Assembly (NCBI RefSeq): GCF_018987265.1
Contig: NZ_CP076855.1
Span: 1 to 64,000, forward strand
Source: Rhizobium sp. WYJ-E13
GTDB lineage: Bacteria > Pseudomonadota > Alphaproteobacteria > Rhizobiales > Rhizobiaceae
Direction of reading: 5' to 3'
DNA length: 64,000 nucleotides
Shown here one piece after another: positions 11,843 to 63,685 of the stretch. The notes beneath the pieces were generated by a model. The model saw nothing but the letters and a program-made list of their open reading frames with translations. It did no database searches and was not told where the DNA came from. The first letter of the stretch is position 1. The number at the start of each line of letters is the position of its first letter. Position numbers and translations under genes: made by a program.

Positions 11843-11845
11843 TTA

Positions 11846-12986: not shown

Positions 12987-13323
12987 GGATTTTGATATAG
13001 GCCTCGCAGATTTGATGTTCAACCGGATACTTGAACTCGGGAACGGATCGTCCTTGGGATCGAAGGAAACCCAAGAAAGAGTCACCGTTGTGACAGGGCA
13101 ACTAAAGGCATCGGCCCCCCGATCGACAAGGATTGCCGGCACCTGTGTCCGGGGATGTTGGGCTGGAGGTTCAAAATGTCTTCCTCGCGGTGAGGGCCGC
13201 ATCAATTCTGACTGCTCCAACTTGTGGTAGAAGCTTTGGATAGCGTGGTGCTCAACGGTCTCCGGGCGAACTCCGCATCGAGATAGTCAAACGCGGGCCC
13301 CAATTCCTCCGCCAGCTGGTCAA
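12987..13323. other. Intergenic, nothing recognised
   Basis: Upstream region of the ArsR gene and of the SnoaL-like relic. No gene or notable repeat was seen. Confidence 0.4.
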
Positions 13324-13690
13324 ATGGTCCAATCCTCTCTTTCCGTCCGACCTCCCACATTGCTGAGGCTCGAGGCCGAGCGGGCGATCCGGCAGCTGGT
13401 CGTGAAATTTGTCTACCCTGCGGACGCCCGCGATTTCGCAGCTGTCGCCGACATGCTCAGATATGTGACCCTTGTCGTGCCGCCGAAACCCACGGTCGAG
13501 AGGCGACCGCAGCTTTTATCGCCAAAGGTATCCGTCGACACGAAGACGGCACGCCTAAGACCTGGCATTCCGTCTCCGATCTCCTCAATGTCGATTTGTC
13601 GAGGGGGCAGGCGACCTCGATCTTACTTCACGGTCGTCAGGCGTTCGAAGGTCTTTTTTGCAACCGATCAATACCGGACGGTACGCCGAC
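13324..13690 (+). pseudogene. Frameshifted SnoaL/NTF2-like protein
   Basis: Two frames together read as one SnoaL-like (nuclear transport factor 2 fold) protein. Frame one gives EAERAIRQLVVKFVYPADAR and DFAAVADMLRYVTLVVPPKP; from about 13497 a second frame continues with GREATAAFIAKGIRRHEDG, TPKTWHSVSDLLNVDLSRGQ and ATSILLHGRQAFEG. The N-terminal helix, the middle FIxxG segment and the H(S)VSD(L/I)xVDL strand are family landmarks. A one-base change near 13495 breaks the gene and the C-terminal end is not recognisable. Proteins of this fold are often isomerases, hydrolases or dehydratases of small molecules. Confidence 0.65.
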
Positions 13691-13708
13691 GCGGCGGCGT
13701 TCTGGTAG

Positions 13709-15634: not shown

Positions 15635-16126
15635 CCTCTGTCCGGCTCCGTATTTCGGCGAAAGACCGGCCGATCTAACATTTTCTCGCTGATGGAAGAT
15701 TTCAAGCTAGCCCAATTCGATTTCAAAGGTAATCAACCTGCACGCTGCTCTCCCAAGTCAAAGACTGTTGGGAGTCTTCACCCAGGACCCAAGCCATAAT
15801 TCGCACACGCCCACCGGGGCCGCTAAACGCGTCCCTGGTGAATGTCAAGAATTCTCGTTCCAACGCTGGCCTATCGCTCCATTTAAAACTTGAGCGCGAA
15901 AGTTTTCCCAGGCCGCTTTGAGAAATGTCCTCATCTGCTCACGCTTGGGAACACAGTATGTTTGGCACACGACTTTCGTTGCTGGTTGGCAACGGCATGC
16001 AAGGGCTGCAAGCGACCGCCGGCCATTGCCGAAGCTACAGCTGTAGCATGATTGCAGCGAAACGCTCATCGGGTCGGAGCCGGTGTGGGTTAACCTGATC
16101 CTCATCGCAAAGAGGAGCTCACTAAA
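15635..16126. other. Intergenic, nothing recognised
   Basis: Upstream region of the sensor kinase (minus) and of the methyltransferase relic (plus). No gene was recognised. Confidence 0.5.
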
Positions 16127-16921
16127 ATGGGATATTACTTCGGCCATTCACCACTAGAATTGGATCGTCTCAAGGCCCAGTCTACTGTCTTGAAGCCGAT
16201 AACCAAGCGTCTTCTTGATAGGGCCAGAATCCGAGAGAGTGATGTGGTGCTCGATTTGGGATGCGGAGCCGGAGATGTTTCCCTTCTGGCGGCCGAACTC
16301 GTCGGGCCGACGGGCGCAGTCATCGGTGTCGACCAGAGCGCAGCGGCAGTCGGCCTAGCGCGTGCCCGGGCGCACCAGGCGGGGTTAAAGTAAAGAACGT
16401 CGAATTCCAGGTAGCCCCGGTTGGGAACTCAAGGCGCGAGGCGAATTCGATATCGTGGTTGGCCGATATGTCTTGATGCATCAGGAGCACCCGTCTGCTT
16501 TTCTCAAGACTGTCAGCTCATATGTAAAGGATGGCGGTATCCTCGCGTTTCACGAAATCGACATGCGCACCACATTTGATATTTTGCCAAATGTCCTGGC
16601 CTACCTGGCAGTATGCGATGAAATCATGCAGGCCATTGCGGCCGGGACGCCCCATCCCGATACCGCGGCAAAGCGTCCCTTTTTCGGCAAGCCGAGCTGC
16701 CCGAGCCGAAGCTCTTCTGCGAAAGACCGGTTGGAACTCCAGAGACGTTAGAACTGCATCGTTGGGTGGCATCGGTTCTTTTGGCTGTGCGCGAGATCGA
16801 GGGTCTTGCCTCAGACGGCGATGGCGTTGAAAAGTGGGAGCGCAGGCTCGCAGGCTGGCTCGCGACGTCCAACAGTCAGGTCGTTGGGCCAGACCAATAT
16901 TGTTGCTGGGTCAGGCTTTGA
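16127..16921 (+). pseudogene. SAM-dependent methyltransferase, broken by two frameshifts
   Basis: Frame one (16127-16393) holds the SAM-binding motif I VVLDLGCGAGDVSLLAAEL and motif II GAVIGVDQSAAAV. A second frame, from about 16420, continues with EFDIVVGRYVLMHQEHP and the post-motif LKTVSSYVKDGGILAFHEID. A third frame, from about 16697 to 16921, reads ELPEPKLFCERPVGTPETLE and ends WVRL. Joined, these make one class I methyltransferase of about 264 residues. Two single-base changes, near 16394 and 16695, destroy it. A TAAAATGGG start context with GGAG upstream is intact, suggesting recent decay or sequence error. Confidence 0.85.
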
Positions 16922-17179
16922 CGAGCCGACAAGGGCTGGGTCGGATCTAATCGGCTGCCTGCGGCGCACTGGCGCCGACTAAAGATGCCGAGAAATGCAC
17001 AGGTCGGGATCGCGAGCAGTCTTGGGCGTCATCGTCGTAGGCACCCGAAAGCCCGATTGGGCAATTTCAGAACTCTAAAGACCACTAGAAATCATGAAGA
17101 TCGCGGCAAGATTGGTGGCGAGCGTGAACGTCGTATTTCTGCAAGACGCGGAGGGGCGCCGTGACGGGAAGCGATGGCC

Positions 17180-17506
17180 TCATTGCGAAGGCCTGCGAAG
17201 TCGCAACGGCATTTGCCCCGAAGGTGTCCCGTCTGGTCGAACGCGAAACCACGTTTTGTCTTCCCTCGACCATGTCAGCGTGCAATGACCAAATTTGATG
17301 GCGACGCGCATGGCGAGCCTTACGGATCTTAAATCGATCGCGGGCTCGCGCTCGTGGAGGTACTTGTAAAGCTGGCCGACTGTCGACCCGACAGCTACCT
17401 TGTCGATGAAAAACAAACGGTTCTTACGCACCGCCCCGTCGAGATTGAATTCGATGAGATAGGTTGTTGCGAAGGCGCGATCATCAGAATCACGGTGAGG
17501 CGCTTG
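17180..17506 (-). CDS. Hypothetical protein
   Basis: A 108-residue ORF (open for 14 more codons upstream) just downstream of the alpha/beta hydrolase gene on the same strand. It contains a protein-like segment, TTYLIEFNLDGAVRKNRLFF followed by IDKVAVGSTVGQLYKYLHER, but the C-terminal 30 residues are Arg-rich and unconvincing. No family is recognised. It may be the remains of a longer gene. Confidence 0.35.
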   Translation of the reverse strand, partial: QAPHRDSDDRAFATTYLIEFNLDGAVRKNRLFFIDKVAVGSTVGQLYKYLHEREPAIDLRSVRLAMRVAIKFGHCTLTWSREDKTWFRVRPDGTPSGQMPLRLRRPSQ

Positions 17507-17548
17507 CATCGGTGAACTCCAGGCCGGCCACCATTTCCCGCCGAACAA

Positions 17549-18268
17549 TCACGGTTGTAACGAGTGGATTGCTTCGACGAGCGCGTGCGGATCGGAAAGA
17601 AACGGGGAATGGTCGCAAGCAAGGGTGACAACCTGCTGGCACGGCATATTTACGAGCATGGCACGTTGGAGCTCGATCGGAATCGCCCTGTCGAGTGTGC
17701 ATTCAATGTAAGCGCGCGGTACTGTTCCAAAACGCGACGAGGTCACCTTTATCGGCGTTGCCAACGCGCTTAGCGGTTCAAGTCCCAGAGACTCATGGGC
17801 GATGACGAGCCAATCTTCTGATACCTCATTGTAAAAGAGCGCGTCTGCGCTGTCGACAGAGACGGACAACATACCGCCGCCGGCCTCACGGAAAGCAGCC
17901 GTGATAGCCGCGGCATTGCTGCCGGTGGCCGCGAGATCAAACACGCTTTTGCCGGATGGCAGGATGAACGCTGCCAGGTAGATCAGTAGCTGGACCCGTT
18001 GCGGCACACGTTCGGCCACCTCGCTTATCAGGGCGCCGCCGCGACTATGCCCGACCAGGACAACCGGTTCGTCGATATCAGCAAGGACGGCGGCAATCTG
18101 ATCTGCCCATATGGACAGAGATATTTCCGATAGTGGTGTCCCGTCGCCGCCCATTCCAAGAAGTTCCGGGGCGGTGACGCGATGGCCAGCCGTCTCCAGC
18201 AGCGGGATCAATCTGCTCCAGCATCGCCGACCATGAAAGGCCCCAGGAACAAGGACGATATGTGCCAT
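17549..18268 (-). CDS. Alpha/beta-fold hydrolase (methylesterase-like)
   Basis: A 239-residue alpha/beta hydrolase without signal peptide. It has the oxyanion segment LVPGAFHGRRCW near the N-terminus, the nucleophile elbow GHSRGG with Ser75, and a C-terminal catalytic His in CDHSPFLSDP. The cap and length resemble the plant methylesterase/hydroxynitrile lyase-like group common in soil bacteria, which usually cleaves small esters. The ATG at 18268 has a GGAG site; 12 upstream in-frame codons are ignored. Confidence 0.9.
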   Translation of the reverse strand: MAHIVLVPGAFHGRRCWSRLIPLLETAGHRVTAPELLGMGGDGTPLSEISLSIWADQIAAVLADIDEPVVLVGHSRGGALISEVAERVPQRVQLLIYLAAFILPSGKSVFDLAATGSNAAAITAAFREAGGGMLSVSVDSADALFYNEVSEDWLVIAHESLGLEPLSALATPIKVTSSRFGTVPRAYIECTLDRAIPIELQRAMLVNMPCQQVVTLACDHSPFLSDPHALVEAIHSLQP

Positions 18269-18762
18269 GCAGATCTCCGTTTCGTGTACCCGCGCTGCGC
18301 ACACATTGCACAGACCGCCTCCATGGAGTTAATTCCCGAAGGTCGAAGGCTTGTGTCAGATTGGCAGGCTTTGACTACAACTGTGATTTGGGTTCCACCA
18401 TGCTGGCACCCGACGAAGATATGGGACGAGGTTTTTCGCCGGAACCTTTCTTATTGCAAGAACGGGACTCCGGTGGTTGGGCGGGAAACGACCCATCTTC
18501 CATCGCAGCGCTGTGCTAGACGGCTTCGTTCGCCATTTGAGGATGCGCTGGATCAACAGCCGGACATGCACGTGATACTCGCTTGATGCCGGCTTTGATC
18601 GCAGGCCGATTTCGGTGCCACCATATAATCATGCGTTTTTGGAATCCGTCCGTCTTTCCTGAAAGATAAGAGATACCGCGATCTCCATGGTGAGCCTACC
18701 GTTATGTTTCAACCGGCAGAACACTTAAACGTCTCTGGCAGGACGGTTCTATCCGCCGGCGA
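18269..18762. other. Intergenic, nothing recognised
   Basis: Divergent upstream region of the hydrolase and of the membrane protein at 18763. No gene was recognised. Confidence 0.4.
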
Positions 18763-36493: not shown

Positions 36494-37012
36494 TCAATTG
36501 CTCCCGGCGACCCTCGTCTGCATGGCGGGGCTGTCGACGCGGTCTCCGTCGGTGATACCAAGTCGCGACACGGTTCCGCCAGCTAGTTCGACGGCATATC
36601 TGGCGGGGGCACGCGACGCGATGATGTGGTGAGAAAATGGCACGGCGTTGGTCTTGATGCTGATTATGACGCCGGAGGCGTCGAGGAACAGCATGTCGAG
36701 CGGTATGAACGTGTTTTTCATCCACATTCGTACCGTTTGCAGGTGATCGAACGCAAAGAGCATGCCGCGATCAGGTGCCAACCCGGTACGGTACATGAGA
36801 CCGCGTTGCAGTTGCGCGGGGCTGAGGGCGATTTCAACCGTGAACGAAAAACGCTCACCCCCTGCCGTCTCGATCGTCAGCGGAGCGGTTTGAAACTCGA
36901 CACGCACCGGTTTCGATCCCGCCCTGCCGATTATGACGATGAACAGGACGCCAGCAACGGCAAATGCACATGCAAGCAAGCAGCGTTTCAGTGGAGCCTG
37001 GTAAGGTCTCAT
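36494..37012 (-). CDS. DUF192 exported protein
   Basis: A 172-residue protein with an N-terminal membrane segment (LLACAFAVAGVLFIVIIG) and a DUF192 domain: LQRGLMYRTGLAPDRGMLFA, then VRMWMKNTFIPLDMLFLD. DUF192 proteins are small secreted or membrane proteins of unknown function. The start at 37012 has a GGGAA site. It lies just downstream of the coupling-protein relic on the same strand, where DUF192 genes are often found in rhizobial transfer clusters. Confidence 0.9.
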   Translation of the reverse strand: MRPYQAPLKRCLLACAFAVAGVLFIVIIGRAGSKPVRVEFQTAPLTIETAGGERFSFTVEIALSPAQLQRGLMYRTGLAPDRGMLFAFDHLQTVRMWMKNTFIPLDMLFLDASGVIISIKTNAVPFSHHIIASRAPARYAVELAGGTVSRLGITDGDRVDSPAMQTRVAGSN

Positions 37013-37085
37013 TCTGAGTTCCCGCTTCGAAAACGACAAGGAATGGGCGCAAACGTCACGCTGAATGCGCGTTGTCGCTGCGAGA

Positions 37086-38340
37086 TCAGGGAAGAGCTTT
37101 GTTGGTCCGTGGCGAGTCGGCCTGGCTGGCGGGAGCCCGGCTGAAGCGGTTGGCTGCGACCTGGCGGTCCGGTTCGGGGCGGCGGAAATAGATCGCGCGA
37201 CCGTAGCAGAGCGGCTTTGCTCCGCGAATGACGATGAAGGCCTCGTCGGTGCGGCAGTCGTTCATCAGCTCGTCCTTGCGAATGAGCGGTCTTGCCATCT
37301 CTAATATGTGTGCCGCGCGGCAGGCTGTCGAGCGAAAAGGCGTTGCCGAAGGTTGCCTTGTTGCTGCCCTCGGACAGCGGTTCCACGCCGCATTGCTCGA
37401 AACTTTCCAGTTCGCGAGCCGTGTCGAGATCCTGAACCACCGCGTAGGTGCGATGAGAGACACCGTCATACAACTCCCGCTTGCCCTCCTTTTCCCATTG
37501 TTTTTCAAGCTGTCCGACGGACTGGTAGAGACGTTGCAGGGTAATGCCATATTTGTGTCCGGCGTCACGCGCCGTCTCGATGATCTCCATTGGTCCGAGC
37601 CGGGCGACCTCATCGAGCAAATAAAGAATGGGGCCTTTGCTTCTGCCGTCCGCCTCGTAGGCAGCATTCAAAAGCGCTCCAATAACGGTGCGGCCAACTG
37701 GCGGCGTGGTTTGTAATGCCTTCAGCGAAATCTCCAGGAAAGTTGAGCATTTTCCTGACAGAATCTCCGATGAGCTAAAGCCTTTTCCGGAAACAAGCGC
37801 GGCAAAGGCGCCGTTGGCGAGCCACGCGCTCGACTCATCTGCATTGGCGTACATGCCCGAAAAGGTCTCGTCGACGTTTCCCATCAGGGGGCCGGCATAG
37901 TCACGCGCAAGAGAGCTGTGGCTTGTGGCATGGATCGCAGCCAGGATCTGGCGCATTTCCTTTTCCGGTCTGGCGAGACCGTTCCGCAACTGCCTCAGCG
38001 TCTTTTGTTCGGGCGCAAGATACCTATCCCAGAGAATATGGGCGAGGAGACAGGCTGTCATGGCCTTGCCGCGACAGGTGAAGAAGCTGCTGTGGGCGCT
38101 GGCGTTGGCCGGCGCGTCGCCCGCCATCCAGACGGCCACCGAAAAGACATTCGTGATTGCCATCGGGGCCTTGATGTCGATCCAGTCCAGCACGTTGAAA
38201 CCTGCTCCGTTGTCCAACAACAATTCATGAACCTTATGCCCCATCGCCTGCCGGACGCATGACACCATCGGACCGAGCTCGCCTGAAGGATCAAGGATCA
38301 CGGTCGATCCGGTCCATGTCAAAAAGGGTTGAGACCGCTG
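37086..38340 (-). pseudogene. Truncated and frameshifted VirD4/TraG coupling protein
   Basis: From about 38331 the minus strand reads QPFLTWTGSTVILDPSGELG followed by MVSCVRQAMGHKV, then SSFFTCRGKAMTACLLAHI, and the Walker B-like GPILYLLDEVARLGPMEIIE with GITLQRLYQSVGQLEKQW. This is the ATPase domain of a type IV coupling protein, which links relaxosome to transfer channel. The N-terminal part with membrane anchor and Walker A loop is missing. At about 37300 the frame changes; the other frame continues with MARPLIRKDELMNDCRTDEA, the conserved C-terminal end, to the stop at 37086. Non-functional as it stands. Confidence 0.88.
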
Positions 38341-38530
38341 ACGTACTTTTGAACGAACCGGATCGAACAGGATGAGGGAGCGACTGCGGTGCGCATCGGC
38401 GCGCCAAGCGATAAAATTCGTCCATCTCCAAGGGATCTGCGTTCGCCGACGCCACGCCCATGCCACCTGCAAGCGTGGCGGTAAATGCCGCAGCCTGAAC
38501 CAGGAGATCGACAAATTCCCAACGATTCAC
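38341..38530 (-). pseudogene. Possible N-terminal fragment of an exported dehydrogenase small subunit
   Basis: A GTG-started frame at 38530 reads NRWEFVDLLVQAAAFTATLA, then GGMGVASANADPLEMDEFYR LARRCAPQ. This resembles a Tat-type leader followed by the start of a gluconate/sorbitol dehydrogenase small subunit, but the twin-Arg is Asn-Arg and the frame is lost where the coupling-protein sequence begins. It may be the junction of a rearrangement that also removed the coupling protein's N-terminus. Tentative. Confidence 0.3.
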
Positions 38531-50713: not shown

Positions 50714-51646
50714 ATGAAGAAGGCAAGTCAGAAGAACGAGAACCGCCCGGATGTCTATGCGCGCATCACGGACATTCTGATCGGCGAACTTGAACGCGGC
50801 GTGCGCCCCTGGATTCAGCCATGGGGATCCGGCCATCTCGGCAATCACGTGTCTCGCCCGCTGCGCTTCAACGGCGAACCCTATTCCGGCGTCAACGTTC
50901 TCCTCCTGTGGTCGGAGGCGGCGAGACGCGGTTATGGCTCGGCGATGTGGATGACCTTTCGCCAGGCGCTTGAGCTCGGCGGCAATGTCCGCAAGGGCGA
51001 GACCGGCTCTATGGTCGTCTACGCCAACCGCATCACCAAGACCGAAACCGACGGCAATGGCGAAGACATCGAGCGCAACATCCCGTTTCTCAAGGCCTAC
51101 ACTGTTTTCAATCTGGAGCAGATCGATGGTCTTCCCGAAGGCTACGGCGCCCGGTCCGATCTAGCACCGTTAGAGCCTGTCGAGCGCCTTGACCATGCCG
51201 ACGCTTTTTTCCGGGCAACCGGCGCCGTCATCCGTCACGGCGGAAGCAAGGCCTTCTATGCACCAGGACCCGACATTATCCAGATGCCGCCGATCGAAGC
51301 CTTTAGAGATGTCGAGAGTTATTATGCCACCCTTGCCCATGAGCAAATCCATTGGGCTGGCGCCGCTCATCGGCTCAATCGCGATCTGTCCCGTTATGCC
51401 AAGGATCGGTCGGAGCGGGCCCGCGAAGAACTGATCGCCGAGCTTGGTGCCGTTTTCCTTGCGGCCGATCTCGGTATTGTTCCTGAATTGGAACCAAGGG
51501 CAGATCATGCGAGCTATCTCGCGTCGTGGCTCACGGTGCTACAGAACGACAAGCGATTTATCGTCCAGGCAGCGGCGCAGGCGCAACGGGCCGTCAGCTT
51601 CCTGCATTCGCTGCAGCCGGAAGCGGATGTGAAGGCTGCAGCCTAA
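50714..51646 (+). CDS. ArdC-type antirestriction protein with zincin domain
   Basis: A 310-residue protein with an N-terminal ArdC single-stranded-DNA-binding domain (residues about 10-135; ITDILIGELERGVRPWIQPW, YSGVNVLLLWSEA, RKGETGSMVVYANRITKTET) and a C-terminal zincin-like metallopeptidase domain with His209-Glu210-Gln-Ile-His213 (HEQIH). ArdC proteins coat incoming plasmid single strands and protect them from restriction during conjugation. Length matches the family. GGAAGGACAGG precedes the ATG. A key member of a leading-region-like cluster. Confidence 0.95.
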   Translation: MKKASQKNENRPDVYARITDILIGELERGVRPWIQPWGSGHLGNHVSRPLRFNGEPYSGVNVLLLWSEAARRGYGSAMWMTFRQALELGGNVRKGETGSMVVYANRITKTETDGNGEDIERNIPFLKAYTVFNLEQIDGLPEGYGARSDLAPLEPVERLDHADAFFRATGAVIRHGGSKAFYAPGPDIIQMPPIEAFRDVESYYATLAHEQIHWAGAAHRLNRDLSRYAKDRSERAREELIAELGAVFLAADLGIVPELEPRADHASYLASWLTVLQNDKRFIVQAAAQAQRAVSFLHSLQPEADVKAAA

Positions 51647-51914: not shown

Positions 51915-52526
51915 TTAGCGCACCTCGAATCTGGCGAGCATCTTGCGCAACTGCGCGTTCTGCGTGATGAGCTTCTTTGCAAGCTGCCGCCGCAACGCAT
52001 CGACTTCCGCGTCAAGATCGGCCATCTCATCCATGAAGGATTTCGGGGCAGTAACGACGGCAGGAGCGACCTGGCCGGTTGGATCGGCAGAAACCACAGG
52101 CTTAACAATCGCGTCAACCTTCTTCCGGCGTGTCGGCGATGTCTTCAAGCTTGTTTCGACAGCAGGGATCCGCGTGGGGGAAGCCGATTTGTCCTCAAGC
52201 TGGTGCGGGGCGGAGATATTTGTGGGCTCCTGGATATCAACTAGGGCCGCAGGAGTTTCCACTGCAACTGGTGCCGCCGTTTCGGTGTCCGTGGAGCCAG
52301 CATCTGGTTCGAGCAGGCTTGCCTCGACTTGCGCCTCAGAGCCGGACTCAGCGGAGCGGTCGACTGCAGTCTCGTCAAGGGCAGGTTGTTCCTCTTCGGG
52401 AACAGGCTTGTATTCGAGAGCAATGGTCTTCTGTGCGAGTGCTGGACTCTCGTCATGACCATGTGGTTTCGGTTTACGCGACACCAGGTCAGCCACAAAT
52501 CTCCATGGTGTTCTCATCACATACAA
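51915..52526 (-). CDS. SyrB-like protein (coiled-coil tail)
   Basis: A 203-residue protein with a long Pro/Ala/Glu/Thr-rich low-complexity N-terminus and a C-terminal coiled coil: DEMADLDAEVDALRRQLAKK followed by LITQNAQLRKMLARFEV. The tail resembles that of the shorter SyrB-like protein next to it, (E)LADLI..EE(N)..LRK.LAEKLRAENA(D/Q)LRKxL. In S. meliloti SyrB represses exopolysaccharide genes through SyrA. Whether this copy acts as a regulator is unknown. Confidence 0.65.
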   Translation of the reverse strand: MYVMRTPWRFVADLVSRKPKPHGHDESPALAQKTIALEYKPVPEEEQPALDETAVDRSAESGSEAQVEASLLEPDAGSTDTETAAPVAVETPAALVDIQEPTNISAPHQLEDKSASPTRIPAVETSLKTSPTRRKKVDAIVKPVVSADPTGQVAPAVVTAPKSFMDEMADLDAEVDALRRQLAKKLITQNAQLRKMLARFEVR

Positions 52527-52659: not shown

Positions 52660-53073
52660 TCAGGCCTTGCCAAGGCGCTTGCGCAAATCCGCGTTCTCGG
52701 CGCGCAGCTTTTCGGAGAGCTCCTTGCGAAGCTGCTTGTTCTCTTCCTCAAGCTTGATCAGGTCGGCGATATCGTCAATGACGTCAACAGGGGTGGCGAC
52801 CGGAGCGGAGGCCGCAGCTTTGACGGGGGGCTTGCGAGTGACGGCCGCCTTCGGTGCGGTAACCGCCTTTTCAGCCTTGACCGGAGCCGGCTTGGAGGCG
52901 CGCTTCGCACGCGTCTTCTTGGCCGGCTTTTCAACGGGTGCAGCAGTAGCATCGACGGTGTTAGCTTCAGCCAAAGCCTTCGGTGCCCGAGGCTTGCGGG
53001 TCTTCTTATCGGCGGGCGCTGCCGCTGGCGCTTCGGTGGTCGCAGTTGTTTCAATCGTGGTTTCGTCGGCCAT
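52660..53073 (-). CDS. SyrB-like regulator
   Basis: A 137-residue protein of the rhizobial SyrB-like group: Ala/Lys/Pro-rich basic N-terminal two thirds (AAPADKKTRKPRAPKALAEA, KKTRAKRASKPAPVKAEKAV) and a leucine-zipper C-terminus IDDIADLIKLEEENKQLRKE followed by LSEKLRAENADLRKRLGKA. The basic part could bind DNA in the manner of histone H1-like proteins. Same strand as the longer relative at 51915-52526, with about 130 bp between, so likely a duplicated pair. Confidence 0.85.
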   Translation of the reverse strand: MADETTIETTATTEAPAAAPADKKTRKPRAPKALAEANTVDATAAPVEKPAKKTRAKRASKPAPVKAEKAVTAPKAAVTRKPPVKAAASAPVATPVDVIDDIADLIKLEEENKQLRKELSEKLRAENADLRKRLGKA

Positions 53074-53604
53074 CAGTGTTCTCCTCTGTCAGGCGGGCAA
53101 GCATTTGATTCGCCGCGACTTAATGTCAATGCCGGCGAGCCGTGTTTTCCCGCGCAATTGCTGCTTGAGAGGTCGCTACGCTCTGATTCAGTGGCCAGAG
53201 CGCTACACGGCTCCGGTTATCTACTGGCTTGCAGCCACGCTACGACAGGCAGCAATTCAGGGTGAACGTCGTGCAGACCTGCGTCTCGAGATCGCGTCGT
53301 CTCTGCCGCCAATGCCAGTGTCGCGCCTTCTCAAAGCAGCGGCTCGCCCATTGCGGTCTCGATGCGGCTTGTCTGACCAAAAACCGCCTCGCAAGCTCGG
53401 CTCGATCGTCTTCCCGCAACGGCCTGCTCGTTTTCTTCCCCTGGTCGCTGCGCGCCCATTCCTCGCGAGACAAGAAAGCCTCGGCCAAAGGCCGTCCTTC
53501 ACTTCGTTACGGCCCGATGGGTGCGGTCCGATCGTTTCCGGTCTCATCGACAGCCATCGAGACCGCGATGGGCGCGGCCCGAGCAACCGAAAAGGATCAA
53601 GACA
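53074..53604. other. Long leader of the DUF736 gene
   Basis: No gene recognised in 530 bases. The end carries the GACCGCG/CGCGGCC hairpin at 53561-53579 and an AAAAGGA site. Confidence 0.55.
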
Positions 53605-53916
53605 ATGGCAACCATCGGCTCTTTCACCGCTTCCGAAAACGGCTTTTCCGGCACCATCAAGACGCTCAACCTCAACGTCAAAGCCAAGATCGTCCGGGTC
53701 GAACGCTCATCCGACGACGCACCGGATTTCAGGGTGCTGGCCGGCAATGTCGAATTCGGCGCCGGTTGGCAGAAGCAGGCCCGTGAGAGCGAGCGCGATT
53801 ACATCTCCATCAAGCTCGACGATCCGAGCTTCGCTGCGCCGATCTACGCGACGCTGACGGAAGTTCAGGGCCAGGACGGCCTGCAGCTCATCTGGTCGCG
53901 CAACACGCGCCGCTGA
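53605..53916 (+). CDS. DUF736 protein
   Basis: A 103-residue protein that matches DUF736 over its full length: [38 protein letters not shown] and [23 protein letters not shown]736 proteins are small, widespread on alphaproteobacterial conjugative plasmids, and of unknown function; their position beside ArdC suggests a role in plasmid establishment. AAAAGGATCAAG precedes the ATG. Ends at a bidirectional terminator shared with the HU gene. Confidence 0.95.
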
Positions 53917-53963: not shown

Positions 53964-54242
53964 TCACTTGTTGAGCGCGTCTTTGAGCGCCTTGGCCGGC
54001 TGGAAGCTCAGCTTCTTAGCCGCGGCGACCTTGATGGTCGCGCCGGTCGCTGGGTTGCGTGCCTCGCGCTCCGGCGTGGCTTTCACTTTAAACTTGCCGA
54101 AGCCGGGCAGGGACGTCTCATTACCGGCAACCGCGGCTTCGGTAATAGAAGCGATTACCGCCTCGACGATGGCCTTGCCCTGCACCTTGGTCAGGCCATG
54201 TTCGCTTGCTATCTTGTCGGCGATTTCATTGGTCGTAGTCAT
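53964..54242 (-). CDS. HU-family DNA-binding protein
   Basis: A 92-residue HU/IHF-type protein. It has the helical start NEIADKIASEHGLTKVQGKA, the GFGKF motif in SLPGFGKFKVKATPERE and the beta-arm signature REARNPATGATIKVAAAKKL. It binds and bends DNA as a dimer, and on plasmids may organise DNA or assist replication and transfer. It begins at ATG 54242 with GGAGAATAA upstream. Confidence 0.97.
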   Translation of the reverse strand: MTTTNEIADKIASEHGLTKVQGKAIVEAVIASITEAAVAGNETSLPGFGKFKVKATPEREARNPATGATIKVAAAKKLSFQPAKALKDALNK

Positions 54243-54911: not shown

Positions 54912-55166
54912 TCATCGAGGATGCGGTTTCGGGCCGTAGCCGCGCTTCCGCTTCTGCCGCAGAAGTTCGAGGAAGAGTCCAACGGCTTCCTCCTCCCGCT
55001 CAAAATGGTGCACCAGCCTTTGGCCTCGAGAACCGATCCGTCCCCAGCGCCGTGTCAGGCAGGCCTGCCCGAACAGGGTTGGCTCGATCGACATCGCATA
55101 GTAGCGTGCCATGTTTTTCGAGGCGTCCTTGCGTTCGACATAGAGCTGGTAGGGCTGCGCGATCAT
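54912..55166 (-). CDS. WGR-domain protein
   Basis: An 84-residue protein consisting of a WGR domain: MIAQPYQLYVERKDASKNMA, RYYAMSIEPTLFGQACLTRR, WGRIGSRGQ with the Trp-Gly-Arg signature, and a Lys/Arg-rich end. WGR domains bind nucleic acid and are best known from PARPs; rhizobial plasmids carry several stand-alone copies. The start at 55166 begins the domain; the frame is open 15 more codons. No clear ribosome binding site was seen. Confidence 0.88.
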   Translation of the reverse strand: MIAQPYQLYVERKDASKNMARYYAMSIEPTLFGQACLTRRWGRIGSRGQRLVHHFEREEEAVGLFLELLRQKRKRGYGPKPHPR

Positions 55167-55670
55167 GACAGGCAGAATCGGACAAGGCAGACTCTGCGTC
55201 CAACGAGACATTTGAATCGGTCGGCGGTGATCGATTCATGGCGATGATGGATTGCCGGCGGGATGATCCGGACGAGCCGCCTGCGGCGGACGGTGCTATG
55301 AGCTGCGCTCACCGAACCCCTGGCGGGTTTCGTCCCATTCGGTTAACGCCCCTCTCGCGACTGCCGCATTGGCGGCGCGACTACTCCACGACAATGGTCG
55401 AACATAGACAGGATAGCCGGCTGGACGCCGGATACGGACACGGCGCTGGCGGCGCCGTGGTCTATCTCTCTCTGACGTCGCATTTTGCACCCGCCACTCC
55501 GGCGTCAAGGACCGCGCGGCCCCTCCAATTTTCGGCCGCCGCCCCTTCGGGCCATGGCCAGAAAATCGGCTCCTCCGCTTGCCGCCGCTGGCGGTCGCGT
55601 TCCGCGATCCCTGACCCCTCGCGGCTACAGTGCGGCCTCCTTCCGTCAGAGACGGAAAGGAGACACTGAT
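55167..55670. other. Leader of the 55671 gene, with repeated element
   Basis: No gene recognised. Positions 55525-55620 repeat the element at 54500-54590. Confidence 0.55.
55561..55619. repeat. Copy of a dispersed leader repeat (other copy 54529-54585)
   Basis: Aligned from AAAATCGGCTCC through CCGCCGCTGGCGGTCGCG to CGCGATCC, the copies differ at about six of 57 positions, and weaker similarity continues some 35 bases to the left around CCAATTTT. Each copy includes the hairpin CCGCC-GCT-GGCGG. Confidence 0.8.
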
Positions 55671-56156: not shown

Positions 56157-56241
56157 TGCGGGAAGAGAGGCGGCTCTGGCCGTCTTTCGTCTCTTCTGCA
56201 GGCATGACCGCTTGCCGCCATCGAGCCTGCACGTGGTCTTG

Positions 56242-56268
56242 AGGGGAGAGACTTGCCGCCTCTCCCCT
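56242..56268. repeat. Stem-loop, 9-bp arms
   Basis: AGGGGAGAG (56242-56250) pairs with CTCTCCCCT (56260-56268) around a 9-base loop. Confidence 0.75.
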
Positions 56269-56358
56269 TAAGCTCCCCTCTCCCTGTGGTGCGGGTCGAG
56301 ACCCGCCCGGCCTTTCGGGCCGGTAGGCGGACGCTGCCGCGACTTCCCCAAGCAAGAC

Positions 56359-56426
56359 GGAGATGGGGATCACCTTATGCTGCGCCCTCATGCTTCGGGC
56401 ATTCGCGTCAGATGATCCCCATCTCC
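56359..56426. repeat. Inverted repeat with 14-bp perfect arms
   Basis: GGAGATGGGGATCA (56359-56372) is exactly complementary to 56413-56426. The 40-base interior contains a smaller GCCC/GGGC pair. Confidence 0.85.
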
Positions 56427-56522
56427 TGCGGTGCGCTCGCCGTCTCATCGTTCGCCGGCCATCGATGCCCGTTCCCTGCGGTCACGGCCATCCCGGCAGC
56501 TCACGACGACGGTTCGCTTCAG

Positions 56523-56669
56523 CATCTCTCACCAAAACGGTCTTGCCGTCGTGCTATTCCTTCGGCGTGGATCACAGGCCTGAGCCTGTGATAGCTGTTG
56601 CTTTGTCTGATGACTCGCAACAGCATGAGCGCCTCGGGCACCACGGCAAGACCGTTTTGGTGAGAGATG
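56523..56669. repeat. Long inverted repeat, 32-bp arms enclosing two hairpins
   Basis: Positions 56523-56554 pair with 56638-56669 with a single mismatch (C at 56550 and C at 56642). Between the arms are two perfect stem-loops: 56571-56579 with 56584-56592 (ATCACAGGC, loop CTGA) and 56594-56601 with 56617-56624 (GCTGTTGC, loop 15). The whole can fold into one branched structure. No reverse transcriptase or recombinase gene is near. Confidence 0.9.
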
Positions 56670-56677
56670 GCAGGATA

Positions 56678-56699
56678 GGCTATTGGTATACCAATAGCC
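56678..56699. repeat. Perfect 22-bp palindrome
   Basis: GGCTATTGGTA is followed directly by its reverse complement. Nine bases further, TCGCCC-GAG-GGGCGA (56703-56717) forms another small stem. The lack of a loop suits a protein-binding site (operator, partition or origin site) better than an RNA hairpin. Confidence 0.9.
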
Positions 56700-56868
56700 G
56701 TTTCGCCCGAGGGGCGATTATCTGATTGAGCCCAACCGCAGCCGCGTTAGGTCGGGTGCCCGGCCGAGAATGATGTTCGGCGGCAAAGCTCATGGAGCCG
56801 GAAAGGGGAGGCGGAGAGGAGGGCGGGCCGCCCGGTCGGAAGGGCGCTGATCAGCGAATATGCGTCTG

Positions 56869-57090
56869 AGCGCTTCCGCGATCAGGTGAATAGCCGGTTT
56901 GCTCGCTACGCGCATCGGCGAATGCGCGAACAGGTGAATGAGCGGATCTGCGAGTGCGCGCAGTGCGCGATCAGTGAATCGCTCGACGCGCAAATAGGCG
57001 GATCGGCGATCTCGCGATCCGGCAACTCGGCGCATCGGCGAATCGGTGAATGGGCTAACCGGTCATTGTGCGAATGCTGATGTGTGCGAA
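56869..57090. repeat. Degenerate short-word repeat tract
   Basis: About 220 bases made of variants of the words CGCATCGGCGAAT, CAGGTGAATG, CGGTGAATG and GCGATC. CGCATCGGCGAAT occurs exactly at 56911-56923 and 57031-57043; CAGGTGAAT at 56883-56891 and 56931-56939. Spacing is irregular, so it is not a clean tandem array. Confidence 0.75.
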
Positions 57091-57404
57091 TCCGCGAACG
57101 AGCTCTTTCGTGATTATCTCAGACGCACTCTCGGTGAATAGGGGAATGCCCGAATGAGAGAATAGGTGCCATGACTAACGGGAGATATAGCGCATCGGCA
57201 GACTGGTTGTTGGCGAGTTTTTAAGTCGATCACGTTCGAAAGGTGACACGTTCGGTTTCGCAAATGGGTCCGCTCTGGAAAACAATGTCTGCCGTTGTTT
57301 TGGATAGCAGCATCATCCCCTTGTTCGCGGAGATTTCGATAAGCGAGATCGCCAGACATTCTTCCTTCATTTACACTGCCGCCTTCAACCACGAGGGCCT
57401 CTTA

Positions 57405-59246: not shown

Positions 59247-59286
59247 GTTTTGGGTTGATTTCCGTAAAGGAATGCAGTTCAAATTC

Positions 59287-59302
59287 TTATACCGCAGTAT
59301 AA
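59287..59302. promoter_or_regulatory. Palindromic operator TTATAC-N4-GTATAA before virB1
   Basis: TTATACCGCAGTATAA, again overlapping TATAAT (59298-59303). It falls inside the longest virB1 frame but before the ATG at 59320, which supports the later start. Confidence 0.65.
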
Positions 59303-59319
59303 TTTGCACTGGTTCAGCC

Positions 59320-60468
59320 ATGGATCGCGTCCCGCTTTCGCCTGAAAACAGACAGCACAACACATGGTCGCGAAGCGCATTGTGGATCGCCGGATCGTCC
59401 GCCTTATTGCTCACGGGTTTTGCTTCCGGACCAGACGGCGGCGGCGGTGACCTCACTTCGGAAATACCGGCACAGGTCGATCATCGTTCCAGCGGCCTTG
59501 AGCCGAAGGCAAACAAAGTTGCGCTCGTACCGCGGGCAAATCCGGCGCCATCTGGCTTCGTTCCTTCGACGCACGATGTGCCGACGATCGATTCCGCCAA
59601 CTTCGACGAGCGGTTTGGCGGATCAATCGCTGAAGATCCGCTCCGCGCTAGCTCCTCCTCGTTAGATGCGATCAAGAGGTGGGAGAGGGCTGGACGTTCA
59701 TCCGGAGATGCGGCTGACAACACGAATGCACGGCGCGACAGCGCGGTGCATTCGCTTATCAGCGTATACTCGCATGATCAGAAGTCTGGTCTTCCGGCCA
59801 GCGTTTCGGCAACCCAGCCTCATATCGATGTCAGCGCGCCGCCTACCTTGGCCCGTCCTAGTCTTCTATCCGGAATTCCCGAAGCCTATTCCAAGCTCGC
59901 ATTGGTGATCGCCGGCGACGAGAAGGTTGACCCGAATTGGGTGCTGTCGGTCATGCGAGCTGAGAATGCCAGTTTCGATCCACGCCTCGTTAGTCCCGCT
60001 GGCGCCGTCGGCCTGATGCAGGTTATGCCGCGGATTGGTGATGCTTTCGGTGCGAACGATCTGACCGATCCCGAACAGAACATCCGCGCTGGCACGCGTT
60101 TTCTTCGCATTCTGATCGCCAAGTACAGAAATCCTGTGCTGGTCGCCGCCGCCTATAATGCGGGTGAGCCCAACGTGGACCTTCGCCATTCTCTGCCGTT
60201 GATCCGCGAAACCGCAGACTACGTCACTCGTGTCGTCGGATACTACACTGGCACGGCGGCCGGTCCGACCGTCCCAATAGCCGGCTCTTCGTCAGTGTTC
60301 GCGCCCAGTTCCAGGCGCCACACCGGACCTGCAGAGCGGGCCAAATCCCCCATGCTTGTTTTCTCAGTCGCAGCGCCGATCCCGCCAGACGTTCGTCCTC
60401 AGAATGAGGAGAAGCGGAAGAACACCGGCGGGCCGCTCAAAATTGTGAAGGAAGAGGTGTCTCAATGA
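59320..60468 (+). CDS. virB1: VirB1-like lytic transglycosylase
   Basis: A 382-residue protein with a signal segment (SALWIAGSSALLLTGFASG), about 160 residues of linker, and a C-terminal lytic transglycosylase (SLT) domain at about residues 196-310: NWVLSVMRAENASFDPRLVS with catalytic Glu215, PAGAVGLMQVMP, and VAAAYNAGEP. It opens the peptidoglycan for the type IV channel. A longer frame starts at 59272, but the operator and -10 box at 59287-59303 make 59320 more likely. Its stop overlaps the virB2 start (ATGA). Confidence 0.9.
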   Translation: MDRVPLSPENRQHNTWSRSALWIAGSSALLLTGFASGPDGGGGDLTSEIPAQVDHRSSGLEPKANKVALVPRANPAPSGFVPSTHDVPTIDSANFDERFGGSIAEDPLRASSSSLDAIKRWERAGRSSGDAADNTNARRDSAVHSLISVYSHDQKSGLPASVSATQPHIDVSAPPTLARPSLLSGIPEAYSKLALVIAGDEKVDPNWVLSVMRAENASFDPRLVSPAGAVGLMQVMPRIGDAFGANDLTDPEQNIRAGTRFLRILIAKYRNPVLVAAAYNAGEPNVDLRHSLPLIRETADYVTRVVGYYTGTAAGPTVPIAGSSSVFAPSSRRHTGPAERAKSPMLVFSVAAPIPPDVRPQNEEKRKNTGGPLKIVKEEVSQ

Positions 60469-60836
60469 ATCCGATCGCTTTGGCACTCCACACGGCCATT
60501 CTCTATAGCAGCGTTGCATGGTCCTCGATGGCCCGTCGAAAATGGCTTGGTAACGCGGCTATCGTGCTTGCCGCGAGCCTGATCTTGCTCGTCAGTCAAT
60601 ATGAGCCGGCGGCCGCCCAAAACCTGGATCGTCTCCAGCAGGCCGCTGATCGCCTCGTGCAATTCTTTACTGGGCCCTTCGGTCGATCTGTCGGAGCCAT
60701 CGCATTCATCGGCATGTTCCTGGCTGCTGCTTTCGGATACTGGTCCTGGGGCGCTCTCCTGCGCGTCGCCGGTTGCCTAGCCGGCATGTTCGCGGCAGCC
60801 GAGCTCGTCGACTTCCTCGCCGGTGGGGGAGCGTGA
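60465..60836 (+). CDS. virB2: VirB2/TrbC-type pilin subunit
   Basis: A 123-residue precursor with a long N-terminal signal (NAAIVLAASLILLVSQYEPA, cleavage near AAAQ at about residue 51) and two hydrophobic helices (SVGAIAFIGMFLAAAFGYWS and LRVAGCLAGMFAAAELVDFL) separated by a short loop, as in VirB2 pilins. It overlaps the end of virB1 by four bases, so translation is coupled. Confidence 0.9.
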   Translation: MNPIALALHTAILYSSVAWSSMARRKWLGNAAIVLAASLILLVSQYEPAAAQNLDRLQQAADRLVQFFTGPFGRSVGAIAFIGMFLAAAFGYWSWGALLRVAGCLAGMFAAAELVDFLAGGGA

Positions 60837-60838
60837 CC

Positions 60839-61162
60839 ATGGCGGTAGGCAACGACGCTGACGGTGGCGACGACTATATCGAATCCTATCCAGTCATCCT
60901 CGCGTTGACCCGTCCGCCTACGGTCATGGGGATTCCCTATACCTATTTCCTGGCCGAGTGCTTCGTCTCGCTGATGGCCTTCATGATTCTTGGGTCCATC
61001 CTCTGGTTCCCGGTCTCGTTCGTCGTCCTGCACGGCATTCTCTACGTTCTGACTGTCAAGCTCGACCTCTGGTTCTTCGAGATTGTGGGACGCCTTAGCA
61101 TGTGCGGCGTCAACCCTCTTGGTCGCAAGCTCGGTGGCGGCGTCAGAACCTACGGAGTGTAA
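60839..61162 (+). CDS. virB3: VirB3-like inner-membrane protein
   Basis: A 107-residue protein with the VirB3/TrbD pattern: LALTRPPTVMGIPYTYFLAE near the N-terminus, then two hydrophobic segments (CFVSLMAFMILGSILWFPVS and VLHGILYVLTV) and the conserved end. It helps assemble the type IV channel together with VirB4. Two bases separate it from the virB2 stop. Confidence 0.9.
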   Translation: MAVGNDADGGDDYIESYPVILALTRPPTVMGIPYTYFLAECFVSLMAFMILGSILWFPVSFVVLHGILYVLTVKLDLWFFEIVGRLSMCGVNPLGRKLGGGVRTYGV

Positions 61163-61165
61163 GCG

Positions 61166-63685
61166 ATGAACACGATGGCGAGATCGCTGAAGGGAAGTCT
61201 CACGAAGGGATGGGAAATTTTCGCCGATCGCCGCGTCGCAACGCACGTCCCTTTCTATGTTCCAATCGAAAACGGCATCATCCGCCTGAAGAACGACTGC
61301 CTCGTCTCGACGCTGAAGCTCACCGGCTTTTCCTTCGAGACGGCCGATATCGAAACGATCAATATGCTTCAGCGGCAGCGCAACGCCGCCTTCCGTGCGA
61401 TCTCCTCGATCGGTAGCTTCGCACTCTATTCCCATGTGATCAGACGTAAGGTTGCGCCATCGTTGCCGTCAGTCTTCGCCGATCCCTTCATGGAGCGCCT
61501 CGATCACGTCTACCAGTCAAGCATCTCGAAGAACGAGATGTTCGTGAACGACACTTATGTTTCTCTCGTCGTGCGCCCCATGTTCCGAAAGGGATCGGCG
61601 CTGTCCCGCCTCATGGGCGCAGGCGGTACGATCGTGCGCAAGGAGCAGTTCCGCGCGATGCGCGACAAGCTGGTCGAGGCAACACGAGCACTTGAGAAAT
61701 CGCTTTCTGTCTATGGGCCGAAGGTCCTCCGCGACGTCCAACGCGTTCAAGCTGGCCTCGGCGACAACAGAAAAGTCTTCCGCGATGTCTCTGAAGATAT
61801 GGCCGTCGACGAAGCCGCGCGGAAAATTTGGTTCTCCGAACAATGCGAGTTCTTCTACACACTGCTGAATGGCGGACGCGTCCGGCCGATCCGTCTTGGT
61901 AACATTCCGATTGACGAGATGCTGCCGGCGCGCCGAACGTCGATCGGCAACCGTATCATTCACCTGCAGGGCGATAGATCGGACGATGATCGCTACGCAG
62001 CGATGGTCTCCTTGAAGGAATATCCGCCAGAGACCGGGGCGGGCATGTTCGACTATATCCTCAAACTGCCATTTGAGCTGGTGCTGACACAGTCGATGTC
62101 CTTTGTCGACGATATGGCGGCGCGCAGTCGGATCGAACGGCTGGACCGACAGATGTCGAAGGCCGACGAAGGCGGATCGAGTGTCCAGGCCAATCTCGAT
62201 ATCGCTCGGGACGAACTCGCCCGCAAACGGGTAGCCTTCACCGAGCATCATCTCACGGTGATGCCGGTTGCGAAAACCACTGCCCAGCTTGACGATGCGG
62301 TGGCGCTGATCGGCAATGAACTTGGCGCACTCGGCGCCTCCTATGTCCGCGAGGACCTGAATGCGGAGCCTGCTTATTGGGCGCAACTGCCGGGCAACCA
62401 GGCTTATATCGCACGCCGCGCACTAATCTCGACACTCAACTGCGCCGGTTTGAGCAGCTTTCACGCCTATCCCTACGGCAAACCTGACGGCAACCACTGG
62501 GGGCCGGCGATCACGATCTTCGAAACGACCTCAGGCACGCCCTTCTTCTTCAACTTCCACCAAGGTGACGTCGGGCATACGACCGTCTTCGGTCCCACCG
62601 GGTCCGGCAAGACTGTGATCATGGCCTTCCTGATCCTGCAAGCCTATCGCGTCAGTCCGCGCCTGAAGACGATCGTCTTCGACAAGGACCGTGGTCTCGA
62701 TATCATGGTACGAGCGGCGGGCGGAACCTACATGTCGCTGGAGCCCGGCCAGCCGTCAGGATGGAATCCACTGCTGCTCGACGACAATGAGGAGAACCGA
62801 GTCTTCCTCTACGGGCTCCTGAGCTTCATGCTAAAGCCTGCGAAGGAAGGCGAAAGCCTGACGCCGCAGGAAGAGACGATCATCCGCAATGCGATCAAAT
62901 CCGTTCTCAAAACGAAGGACAGGTCGTATCGCCGCCTCTCGTCGCTCAGGGCACTGCTCGCGGGGAGCGAGCGGACCGAGGGCAGCCTGATCGCCCGGCT
63001 CGACAAATGGGTCGACAAGGGACCGTACGCCTGGCTGTTCGATAACGCGGATGACAATCTCGACATCTCCAGGCCGATGATCGGCTTCGACATGACGTCG
63101 ATCCTGGATGATCCTACGGTGCGCACCGCAGCCCTTCTCTACATGTTTCACCGGCTGGACGCGATCTACGACGGCAAGGCGCCAATCATCAACCTGATGG
63201 ACGAAGCCTGGAAGCTGCTCGACGACGACGAATTCAAGCGCACCATGAAGGACTATTTTAAGACCATCCGAAAAAGGAACGGTCTGGTTATCTTCGGCAC
63301 GCAGTCAGCCGACGATGTAGTGCGATCGAACGTCAGCCGCACGATTATCGAACAGACGTCAACGAACATCTTCTTCGCAAATCCAAAGGCTGACGAAAGC
63401 TCCTACATGGAGCATTTCGGCCTATCGCGAGCGGAGTTCGAATGGGTCAAGAACGGCGATCCAAGCTCCCGTTTCATGCTGATCAAACAGGCAAAGAACA
63501 GCGTGATTGCTCGCGTCGACATGTCCCACATGCCGGAGTTCATCAAGGTGCTTTCTGGCCGCGAGGAGACTGTGCGCGAAGTCGAGATGTTGCTCGACGA
63601 GTATGGCGAGGATCCAAAGAACTGGCTCTCGAAATTCTGCGACTGGGATGGGGTGACGGTCGATGAAAAACGCAAAGCGTCTTGA
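61166..63685 (+). CDS. virB4: VirB4 ATPase of the type IV secretion system
   Basis: An 839-residue VirB4-family ATPase. Walker A is GPTGSGKT at residues 476-483 (Lys482), and Walker B ends in Asp679-Glu680 (NLMDEAWKLLDDDEF). FHQGDVGHTTVFGPTGSGKT and TQSADDVVRSNVSRTIIEQT are conserved. It powers pilus assembly and substrate transfer. It is slightly longer than the common 790 residues. It starts three bases after virB3 and overlaps the next gene by 23 bases. Confidence 0.95.
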   Translation: MNTMARSLKGSLTKGWEIFADRRVATHVPFYVPIENGIIRLKNDCLVSTLKLTGFSFETADIETINMLQRQRNAAFRAISSIGSFALYSHVIRRKVAPSLPSVFADPFMERLDHVYQSSISKNEMFVNDTYVSLVVRPMFRKGSALSRLMGAGGTIVRKEQFRAMRDKLVEATRALEKSLSVYGPKVLRDVQRVQAGLGDNRKVFRDVSEDMAVDEAARKIWFSEQCEFFYTLLNGGRVRPIRLGNIPIDEMLPARRTSIGNRIIHLQGDRSDDDRYAAMVSLKEYPPETGAGMFDYILKLPFELVLTQSMSFVDDMAARSRIERLDRQMSKADEGGSSVQANLDIARDELARKRVAFTEHHLTVMPVAKTTAQLDDAVALIGNELGALGASYVREDLNAEPAYWAQLPGNQAYIARRALISTLNCAGLSSFHAYPYGKPDGNHWGPAITIFETTSGTPFFFNFHQGDVGHTTVFGPTGSGKTVIMAFLILQAYRVSPRLKTIVFDKDRGLDIMVRAAGGTYMSLEPGQPSGWNPLLLDDNEENRVFLYGLLSFMLKPAKEGESLTPQEETIIRNAIKSVLKTKDRSYRRLSSLRALLAGSERTEGSLIARLDKWVDKGPYAWLFDNADDNLDISRPMIGFDMTSILDDPTVRTAALLYMFHRLDAIYDGKAPIINLMDEAWKLLDDDEFKRTMKDYFKTIRKRNGLVIFGTQSADDVVRSNVSRTIIEQTSTNIFFANPKADESSYMEHFGLSRAEFEWVKNGDPSSRFMLIKQAKNSVIARVDMSHMPEFIKVLSGREETVREVEMLLDEYGEDPKNWLSKFCDWDGVTVDEKRKAS

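Follow-up and report, generated by a model that had tools for sequence, protein, structure and literature searches.

Contig C3 of Rhizobium sp. WYJ-E13 (406,180 bases) would, judging by its relatives, be a large rhizobial plasmid, a class of replicon that carries symbiosis genes and many accessory genes. We analysed its first 64,000 bases (the window), in which a stem-rich segment at 56240–56720 lies between two groups of genes. To its left, in what would be a leading region, are genes for an ArdC-like anti-restriction protein (50714–51646, plus strand; Pfam ArdcN, 135.9 bits, and MPTase-PolyVal, 162.2 bits), a DUF736 protein (53521–53916, plus; PF05284, 113.9 bits), an HU-family DNA-binding protein (53964–54242, minus; PF00216, 92.5 bits) and a WGR-domain protein (54912–55211, minus; PF05406, 95.4 bits). 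To its right, on the lagging side, a virB-type operon starts on the plus strand (59272–63685) with genes that Pfam assigns to an SLT transglycosylase (59272–60468), VirB2/TrbC (60465–60836) and VirB4/TrbE (61166–63685), in the order annotated in pRetMIM1e. Two minus-strand frames between the ArdC and DUF736 genes (51915–52526 and 52660–53073; 203 and 137 amino acids) gave no Pfam match; Ala, Pro and Lys are abundant in the second. Farther to the left, a 501-residue minus-strand frame (37009–38514) matches the VirD4/TraG coupling protein over profile positions 67–378 of 468 (145.9 bits) and is perhaps the remnant of another transfer system.

The original prediction had singled out the segment as a dense array of inverted repeats, and all the stems that it named were recovered within a few bases. 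At the outer end lie three GC-rich hairpins (56238–56323): S1 (56238–56250/56260–56272; 13 pairs, one of them G-T), S2 (56291–56297/56300–56306) and S3 (56307–56312/56318–56323). They are followed by S4, with 14-bp arms (56359–56372/56413–56426), and by the long fold-back stem S6 on the minus strand (56523–56554/56638–56669), the 32-nt arms of which are paired at 31 of 32 positions and stand 83 nt apart. The head of S6 holds two hairpins, S6a (56571–56579/56584–56592; a 9-bp stem with a 4-nt loop) and the sequence-conserved S6b (56594–56601/56617–56624; GCTGTTGC/GCAACAGC). Beyond S6 lie S7, a perfect 22-bp palindrome (56678–56699), and, on its lagging side, the short hairpin S8 (56703–56708/56712–56717; CGCCC..GGGCG). 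The predicted right-hand end of the block at 56720 had to be moved, because an 8-bp-periodic array runs on to about 57200.

This density of stems had been called far beyond chance, and the comparison with shuffled sequence confirmed it. Within the 481 bases of 56240–56720 we counted 13 perfect stems of at least 7 bp (mean 3.4 and maximum 11 in 300 dinucleotide shuffles) and 5 of at least 9 bp (mean 0.22, maximum 2), and the longest perfect stem measured 27, compared with 12 in the shuffles. Folded as single-stranded DNA, the minus strand of 56230–56720 reached −156.4 kcal/mol, against a mean of −93.4 (sd 4.1) for 100 shuffles (z −15.3); the minus strand of 56520–56720 alone gave a z of −15.2 against 200 shuffles. 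Of 72,556 plasmid records searched with blastn, 55 match the segment (Rhizobium 42, Agrobacterium 11, Neorhizobium 1 and Mesorhizobium 1), 13 of which were fetched. Two of the 55, pAt8 and pr2, share only the core around the predicted nick site described below, which leaves 53; H91–H93 match only part of the segment. In agreement with the claim that the segment is non-coding, 50 of the 55 records carry no annotated feature under the match; one lists a hypothetical protein (NZ_CP064189) and four have no annotation at all. Mechanical open reading frames of 106–120 amino acids are present within 56240–56720.

A predicted nick site and a co-occurring relaxase

According to an extract of PMC3772185, the MOBP nick consensus is (C/T)ATCCTG(C/T), and in RP4 and tfs4 an inverted repeat lies directly 5′ of it. 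The octamer TATCCTGC at 56677–56670 of the minus strand fits this consensus (YATCCTGY) and fills exactly the 8-base gap between the S7 palindrome and the long stem, so that the palindrome at 56678–56699 stands directly 5′ of it on the minus strand, as the inverted repeat of a MOBP oriT does. By the MOBP consensus rule, the nick is predicted between 56671, on the 3′-OH side, and 56670, the 5′ end of a T-strand that would run towards lower coordinates; S6 begins 1 nt past this point on the T-strand. The exact 13-mer ATGGCAGGATAGG is present in all 37 loci fetched by similarity to the element, as well as in L089 and L090. In R. rhododendri (L146), fetched as a doubtful case, the octamer is kept, the 13-mer is changed and both palindrome and stem are damaged. 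At the corresponding position, Mesorhizobium (L042) and Phyllobacterium (L088) have a palindrome of different sequence. S7 is probably a binding site for the relaxase or an accessory protein, and a terminating hairpin. The IncP (RP4-type) MOBP oriTs resemble the element in the TATCCTGC octamer, in the inverted repeat just 5′ of the nick and in having a MOBP-type relaxase, and 11 bases, CCTATCCTGCC, are common to the element and two IncP oriTs. The element differs from IncP in that its relaxase is encoded away from the oriT and in having an 8-bp array and a VirC1-like ParA protein.

The relaxase, of 674 amino acids, is encoded at 96199–98223 of the same contig, 40 kb from the element, a distance unlike that at most textbook oriTs. 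Searches of the genome with PF03432 and PF03389 gave no match at E 0.001, and the protein surfaced only when the A. leguminum relaxase was used as query, with a single match (96520–98220, 75% identical). It scores 27.7 bits against PF03432 (cut-off 24.6), and the HPHxH motif is conserved in it and in three aligned relatives; a sequence search of the PDB, with the Mesorhizobium relaxase as query, found nothing relevant (best E 0.13). Upstream of the relaxase are a ParA-family ATPase, which matches the VirC1 model PF07015 (30.1 bits, cut-off 24) and scores higher with the general ParA/AAA_31 models (49.3), and two small proteins. One of the two gives a weak hit to RHH that stays below the cut-off (E 0.024). 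In 29 of the 46 plasmid records with a near-full-length match, the relaxase carries no name other than hypothetical protein.

Relaxase and element occur together. Among 200 genomes, our own included, 32 match the element, 31 of them over a long stretch and one (G131) over about 46 bases only. A strong relaxase match (E < 1e-200) was found in 24 of the 200, again including our own; all 24 carry the element and all belong to the 31 with a long match. Another 20 genomes gave only weak partial relaxase matches (27–39% identity). Relaxase and element share a contig in 21 of the 24 genomes (the others being G014, G059 and G075), and for 14 tabulated genomes the distance between them is 25–27 kb in 12 and 37 kb in one. 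Likewise, of the 46 plasmid records in which at least 80% of the relaxase is matched, 45 contain the element; of seven other records with a relaxase match, six are distant (25–30% identity) and the last, from A. rubi, is a fragment of 16%. The element is present without this relaxase in 7 of the 31 genomes and 8 of the 53 plasmid records, pRL7 among them. The 46th record, Phyllobacterium zundukense, has a relaxase of 52% identity and an element unseen by blastn, and it therefore served as a test: as expected, a nick core, a palindrome of other sequence and S8 lie between DUF736 and ParA, and the long stem is missing. The order ParA, two small genes, relaxase follows the nick core in Mesorhizobium, A. 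leguminum and Phyllobacterium. MOB-suite assigns MOBP to four of the relatives fetched, a label that need not refer to this relaxase, types several others as non-mobilizable and gives MOBQ for pRL7. This co-occurrence points to the relaxase acting on the element as its cognate enzyme.

Gene order also fits transfer. With a T-strand that runs to the left, the ArdC block would be transferred first, as a leading region, and the virB genes and relaxase would be lagging and enter last; leading-region genes on one side, with the relaxase and type IV secretion system (T4SS) on the other, is the arrangement of MOBP oriTs. In pRetMIM1e, 12 of the 14 genes from 2801 to 18379 are oriented towards the nick. 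We compared nine annotated neighbourhoods, including those of pRetMIM1e, pRL7 and Phyllobacterium. In seven of them, Phyllobacterium not included, the element is preceded by HU and WGR genes; eight name a DUF736 gene, and four, Phyllobacterium among them, list an ArdC-type metallopeptidase within the stretch. After the element, virB follows in five and ParA, two small genes and the relaxase in three; in pRL7, IS elements and other genes lie within 20 kb. These counts tie the element to the ArdC/DUF736 side rather than to virB. In the Phyllobacterium record, a PLSDB resistance prediction (dfr) falls on a gene annotated as a helix-turn-helix regulator (L088:14775–15077) and is probably a mislabel.

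Of four candidate roles, namely an origin of transfer (oriT), a promoter or initiation site on single-stranded DNA, a replication origin and a structured RNA, the original prediction had favoured the first, and the MOBP octamer, the palindrome directly 5′ of it, the co-occurring relaxase, the gene order and the conserved pairing described below all support that choice. From these sequence features we interpret 56240–56720, extended to about 57200, as the oriT of a large rhizobial plasmid, with a probability of about 0.92. In this model, the MOBP-type relaxase would cut the minus strand at the predicted site between 56671 and 56670 (TATCCTG^C) and take the 5′ end of the T-strand out of the cell. 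An oriT defined in this way would allow the mobility of these plasmids to be predicted from their sequence; in PLSDB, 15 of the 55 matching records are typed as non-mobilizable. The AB2/73 records NZ_CP072175 and NZ_CP067074 match both element and relaxase. Judged by their size, the 605-kb AB2/73 records would be the mega-Ti plasmid, the description of which names, in the extract available, a T4SS, a coupling protein and a putative relaxase and no oriT.

Among rhizobial plasmids, the oriT of pSmeLPU88b was reportedly placed by Giusti et al. in 2012 between parA and mobC, with MobZ said to be of class MOBP0. An extract of PMC13274422 names that study and the parA–mobZ arrangement for the type IV Dtr of pSmeLPU88b. 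By these descriptions, that system resembles ours in having a parA-like gene near the oriT and a mob relaxase in rhizobia.

Pairing is conserved while the long stem varies

Loss of compensatory changes in related plasmids had been named as the outcome that would speak against the stems; the check gave the opposite, with pairing upheld by compensatory changes. In an alignment of 33 distinct rows (without L036, L037, L041 and L042, and without the duplicates L014, L034 and L035), which underlies the values for single stems in this paragraph, standard pairs fill 91.1% of cells, compared with 34.8–44.2% when partners are slid by 1–3 columns. Changes on both sides were seen in 55 of 105 pairs, against a shuffle mean of 25.2 and 25–32 in slid controls, and none of 500 shuffles reached the observed values; these counts ignore kinship. 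The long stem S6 has both-side change in 24 of 31 pairs, and S4 is a second covarying stem (10 of 14 pairs; 93.5% of cells paired). The remaining stems are S6a (89.6% of cells paired; both-side change in 4 of 9 pairs), S6b (96.4%, few changes), the S7 palindrome (96.7%; 2 of 11 pairs) and S8 (97.5%), just past which conservation drops. At the outer end, pairing fills 81% of cells in S1, plus one pair at 85%, 92% for the outer and 71% for the inner pairs of S2, and 92% in S3. Because S1 is not formed in some divergent rows of the inspected alignment (for example, L026, L032 and L038–L040), it is probably accessory.

Covarying stems are also what a structured RNA transcribed from the region would leave. 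We consider this very unlikely: no Rfam family matched at the gathering threshold within the 64,000-base window, an RNA does not explain why a covarying stem abuts the nick octamer and tracks the relaxase, and pAt8 and pr2 carry the nick core but not the stems. Mismatch types offered a test of whether the structure acts as RNA or on one strand. In realigned S6, G.T mismatches on the T-strand outnumbered A.C by 36 to 13 distinct events (p 0.0014), a preference for the T-strand; across all stems in the plain alignment, distinct events showed no significant strand preference (52 to 40, p 0.25), though cells did (137 to 57). The skew is a hint only, as deamination of cytosines in a single-stranded T-strand would produce it too.

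When the arms of S6 were realigned against each other, 34 of 38 rows scored higher than any of 200 shuffles of the same row (L040 by a narrow margin). Of these 34, 30 have a stem that starts at nick+2; the exceptions are L036, L041, L042 and L088. Mesorhizobium (L042) has instead a perfect hairpin of unrelated sequence in the first 44 nt. The proximal arm, compared across 46 rows that have a long stem, is near-fixed for about 6 bases, after which the frequency of the commonest base falls to as little as 0.37. These rows come from a partly pre-selected set of 50, so that 46 of 50 is no occurrence rate; the set took 27 of the 32 loci kept from a genome scan (see below) and left out four without a fold-back and L091. 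Phyllobacterium, R. rhododendri, pAt8, pr2 and 4 of 31 assessable oriT-like scan loci have a weak long stem or none, and the stem is therefore not indispensable everywhere. In most relatives examined, it is the pairing of the long stem and not its sequence that appears to be kept. Nor is the stem a general MOBP feature, because the two IncP oriTs compared have no fold-back at the nick (scores of 7 and 10.5 against null maxima of 10 and 11.5), whereas the element scores 30 against a null maximum of 12.

A strong fold on the transferred strand could instead be a single-strand DNA promoter of the Frpo type, in which RNA polymerase reads the folded T-strand duplex to make early leading-region transcripts or a primer. 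An extract of PMC11541004 describes for Frpo of the F plasmid a strong single-strand fold in the leading region, and the very strong fold here, its site in the presumed leading region near an anti-restriction gene and the lean of the fold-back mismatches to G.T on the T-strand all fit such a promoter. In contrast to Frpo, however, the arms here differ freely in sequence and sit at the extreme 5′ end of the T-strand. Fixed −35/−10 hexamers would forbid the hypervariability of the long-stem arms (commonest base down to 0.37), which disfavours a sequence-specific promoter in the stem. Moreover, a promoter at the T-strand 5′ end would transcribe off the end, away from the plus-strand leading genes. 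A promoter scan of sigma-70 type only found no sites where 0.4 were expected by chance, and hence weighs little. We regard an Frpo-type promoter as unlikely; priming after recircularisation may, alternatively, proceed through the conserved S6b hairpin.

If the segment is an oriT, the octamer would be an unpaired stretch of T-strand between two hairpins, the 22-bp palindrome lying 5′ of it and the long fold-back stem 3′ of it. The hairpin pair would present the octamer single-stranded to the relaxase, at initiation and again at rejoining, and the long stem would keep the released 5′ end from re-pairing. This role of the long stem is put forward tentatively, at a little below even odds. The conserved S6b hairpin in the head of the stem may serve as a landing or priming site. 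With its stem at the nick, the element lends itself to testing how structure at the 5′ end of a transferred strand acts.

An 8-bp-periodic array on the lagging side

On the lagging side of the nick, 56850–57200 holds a degenerate array of about 44 units with a period of 8 bp and a GYGAATNG-like octamer. Among periods 5–13, period 8 was the best in 47 of 53 distinct stretches downstream of the nick core (a set that includes the studied copy and counts L137 in both orientations) and in only 2 of 52 upstream stretches, and 49 of the 53 downstream stretches exceeded the upstream maximum. Period 8 was not the best in L010, L036, L116, L130, L133 and one orientation of L137. In L010, L116, L130 and L133 the best period was 12, the double of which is 24, and the array is probably still present in L116 and L130, where the 8-score is high too. 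The octamer is GYGAATNG-like in most relatives, ACTCTCAG-like in Phyllobacterium and GAACAGGA-like in A. pusense pr2 (L041), which has the strongest 8-bp array of all rows; the copy at 56850–57200 had no blastn match among plasmids.

An extract of PMC4285021 places the overdrive of T-DNA on the non-transferred side of the nick. The position of the array relative to the predicted nick corresponds to that of overdrive. We therefore propose, by analogy, that the array could be an overdrive-like enhancer, which would bind the VirC1-like ParA protein and/or the RHH-like small protein as overdrive binds VirC1. The Ti right border with its overdrive and VirC1/VirC2/VirD2 resembles the element in the nick core, in a VirC1-like ATPase and in a repeat array on the non-transferred side, and it differs in that the element has covarying hairpins on the transferred side, a perfect palindrome and a single site. 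We know of no resemblance between the array itself and overdrive, and its octamer differs between relatives. Together, the array and the VirC1-like gene would join plasmid conjugation and the overdrive system of T-DNA in a single comparable design, a link drawn here by analogy.

The same likeness could mean that the segment is a T-DNA-like border with overdrive, a substrate for a VirD2/VirC system instead of an oriT belonging to the plasmid itself. Besides the VirC1-like protein in the cassette, the sequence TGGCAGGATA, about the first 10 bases, agrees with what we take to be the start of the T-DNA border repeat. However, all 30 of the 200 genomes that contain the core pattern have it at one site, without a border pair, the cassette encodes its own 674-residue relaxase and, to our knowledge, palindrome and stem are not features of T-DNA borders; a border is thus highly improbable, even with the array placed where overdrive sits relative to the nick (extract of PMC4285021).

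Inverted repeats and iteron-like arrays also occur at replication origins, and the stems together with the iteron-like 8-bp array could suggest a vegetative replication origin or a partition site. Yet in pRL7 a repC lies about 19 kb upstream of the element and a second repA/repC 11–14 kb downstream, in Phyllobacterium repABC lies beyond the relaxase on the far side, and the nick octamer and the link to the relaxase would go unexplained. We give this explanation scarcely any weight.

As an oriT, the element is known chemistry in an unusual architecture, of which we found no description in the open-licence PMC literature. It is possible, if rather doubtful, that this architecture is new, with both flanks of the nick set by geometry and not by sequence: the arms of the stem drift yet stay complementary, and the octamer of the array varies between lineages.

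Distribution and divergent loci

This type of oriT was found in Rhizobium, Agrobacterium, Neorhizobium, Phyllobacterium and Mesorhizobium. Each of the 30 genomes (of 200) noted above has a single copy of the core pattern, and the pattern read backwards is present in none of the 200. Scanning 84,980 species genomes for the core together with S8 returned 53 loci, 32 with a palindrome after the core; the other 21, with no such palindrome, were set aside as chance. The 32 kept loci are filed under Rhizobium, Agrobacterium, Neorhizobium, Aliirhizobium, Mesorhizobium and ‘Rhizobiales bacterium’, with the exception of L106. L091 is too short for the stem test, which leaves 31 assessable loci; by inspection of the fold strings, 27 of these fold back at or near the nick and L106, L109, L110 and L133 do not. 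Several scan loci are the same contigs as loci of the other set, so that the two sets are not independent. Viral contigs gave no match.

Two plasmids carry the core without the stems: pAt8 of A. tumefaciens cl001 (4,002 bp; L036:866), with an interrupted palindrome, and pr2 of A. pusense (L041:10001), with half a palindrome. No relaxase is among the four listed genes of pAt8, which may be mobilised in trans, and both plasmids may be oriT mimics used in trans. A helper was identified for neither; the two similar walnut plasmids checked are both from other strains.

L106 (position 4473), filed as Pseudomonas putida KH-21-134, has the core, a perfect palindrome and S8 near a VirD4-like coupling protein, and lacks a fold-back; it may represent a wider host range or a mislabelled assembly. 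On the chromosome of Mesorhizobium sp. M1B.F.Ca.ET.045.04.1.1 (L137:1640–1815), the 50-nt fold-back arms (92% complementary) extend over the nick core and a part of the palindrome, so that two inverted nick cores lie about 150 bp apart. The adjoining VirC1-like gene suggests that this locus is an integrated element. Arm-to-arm copying during single-strand transfer may be what maintains the complementarity of the long-stem arms, and the 50-nt arms of L137, with their second, inverted nick site, are what snap-back copying would leave.
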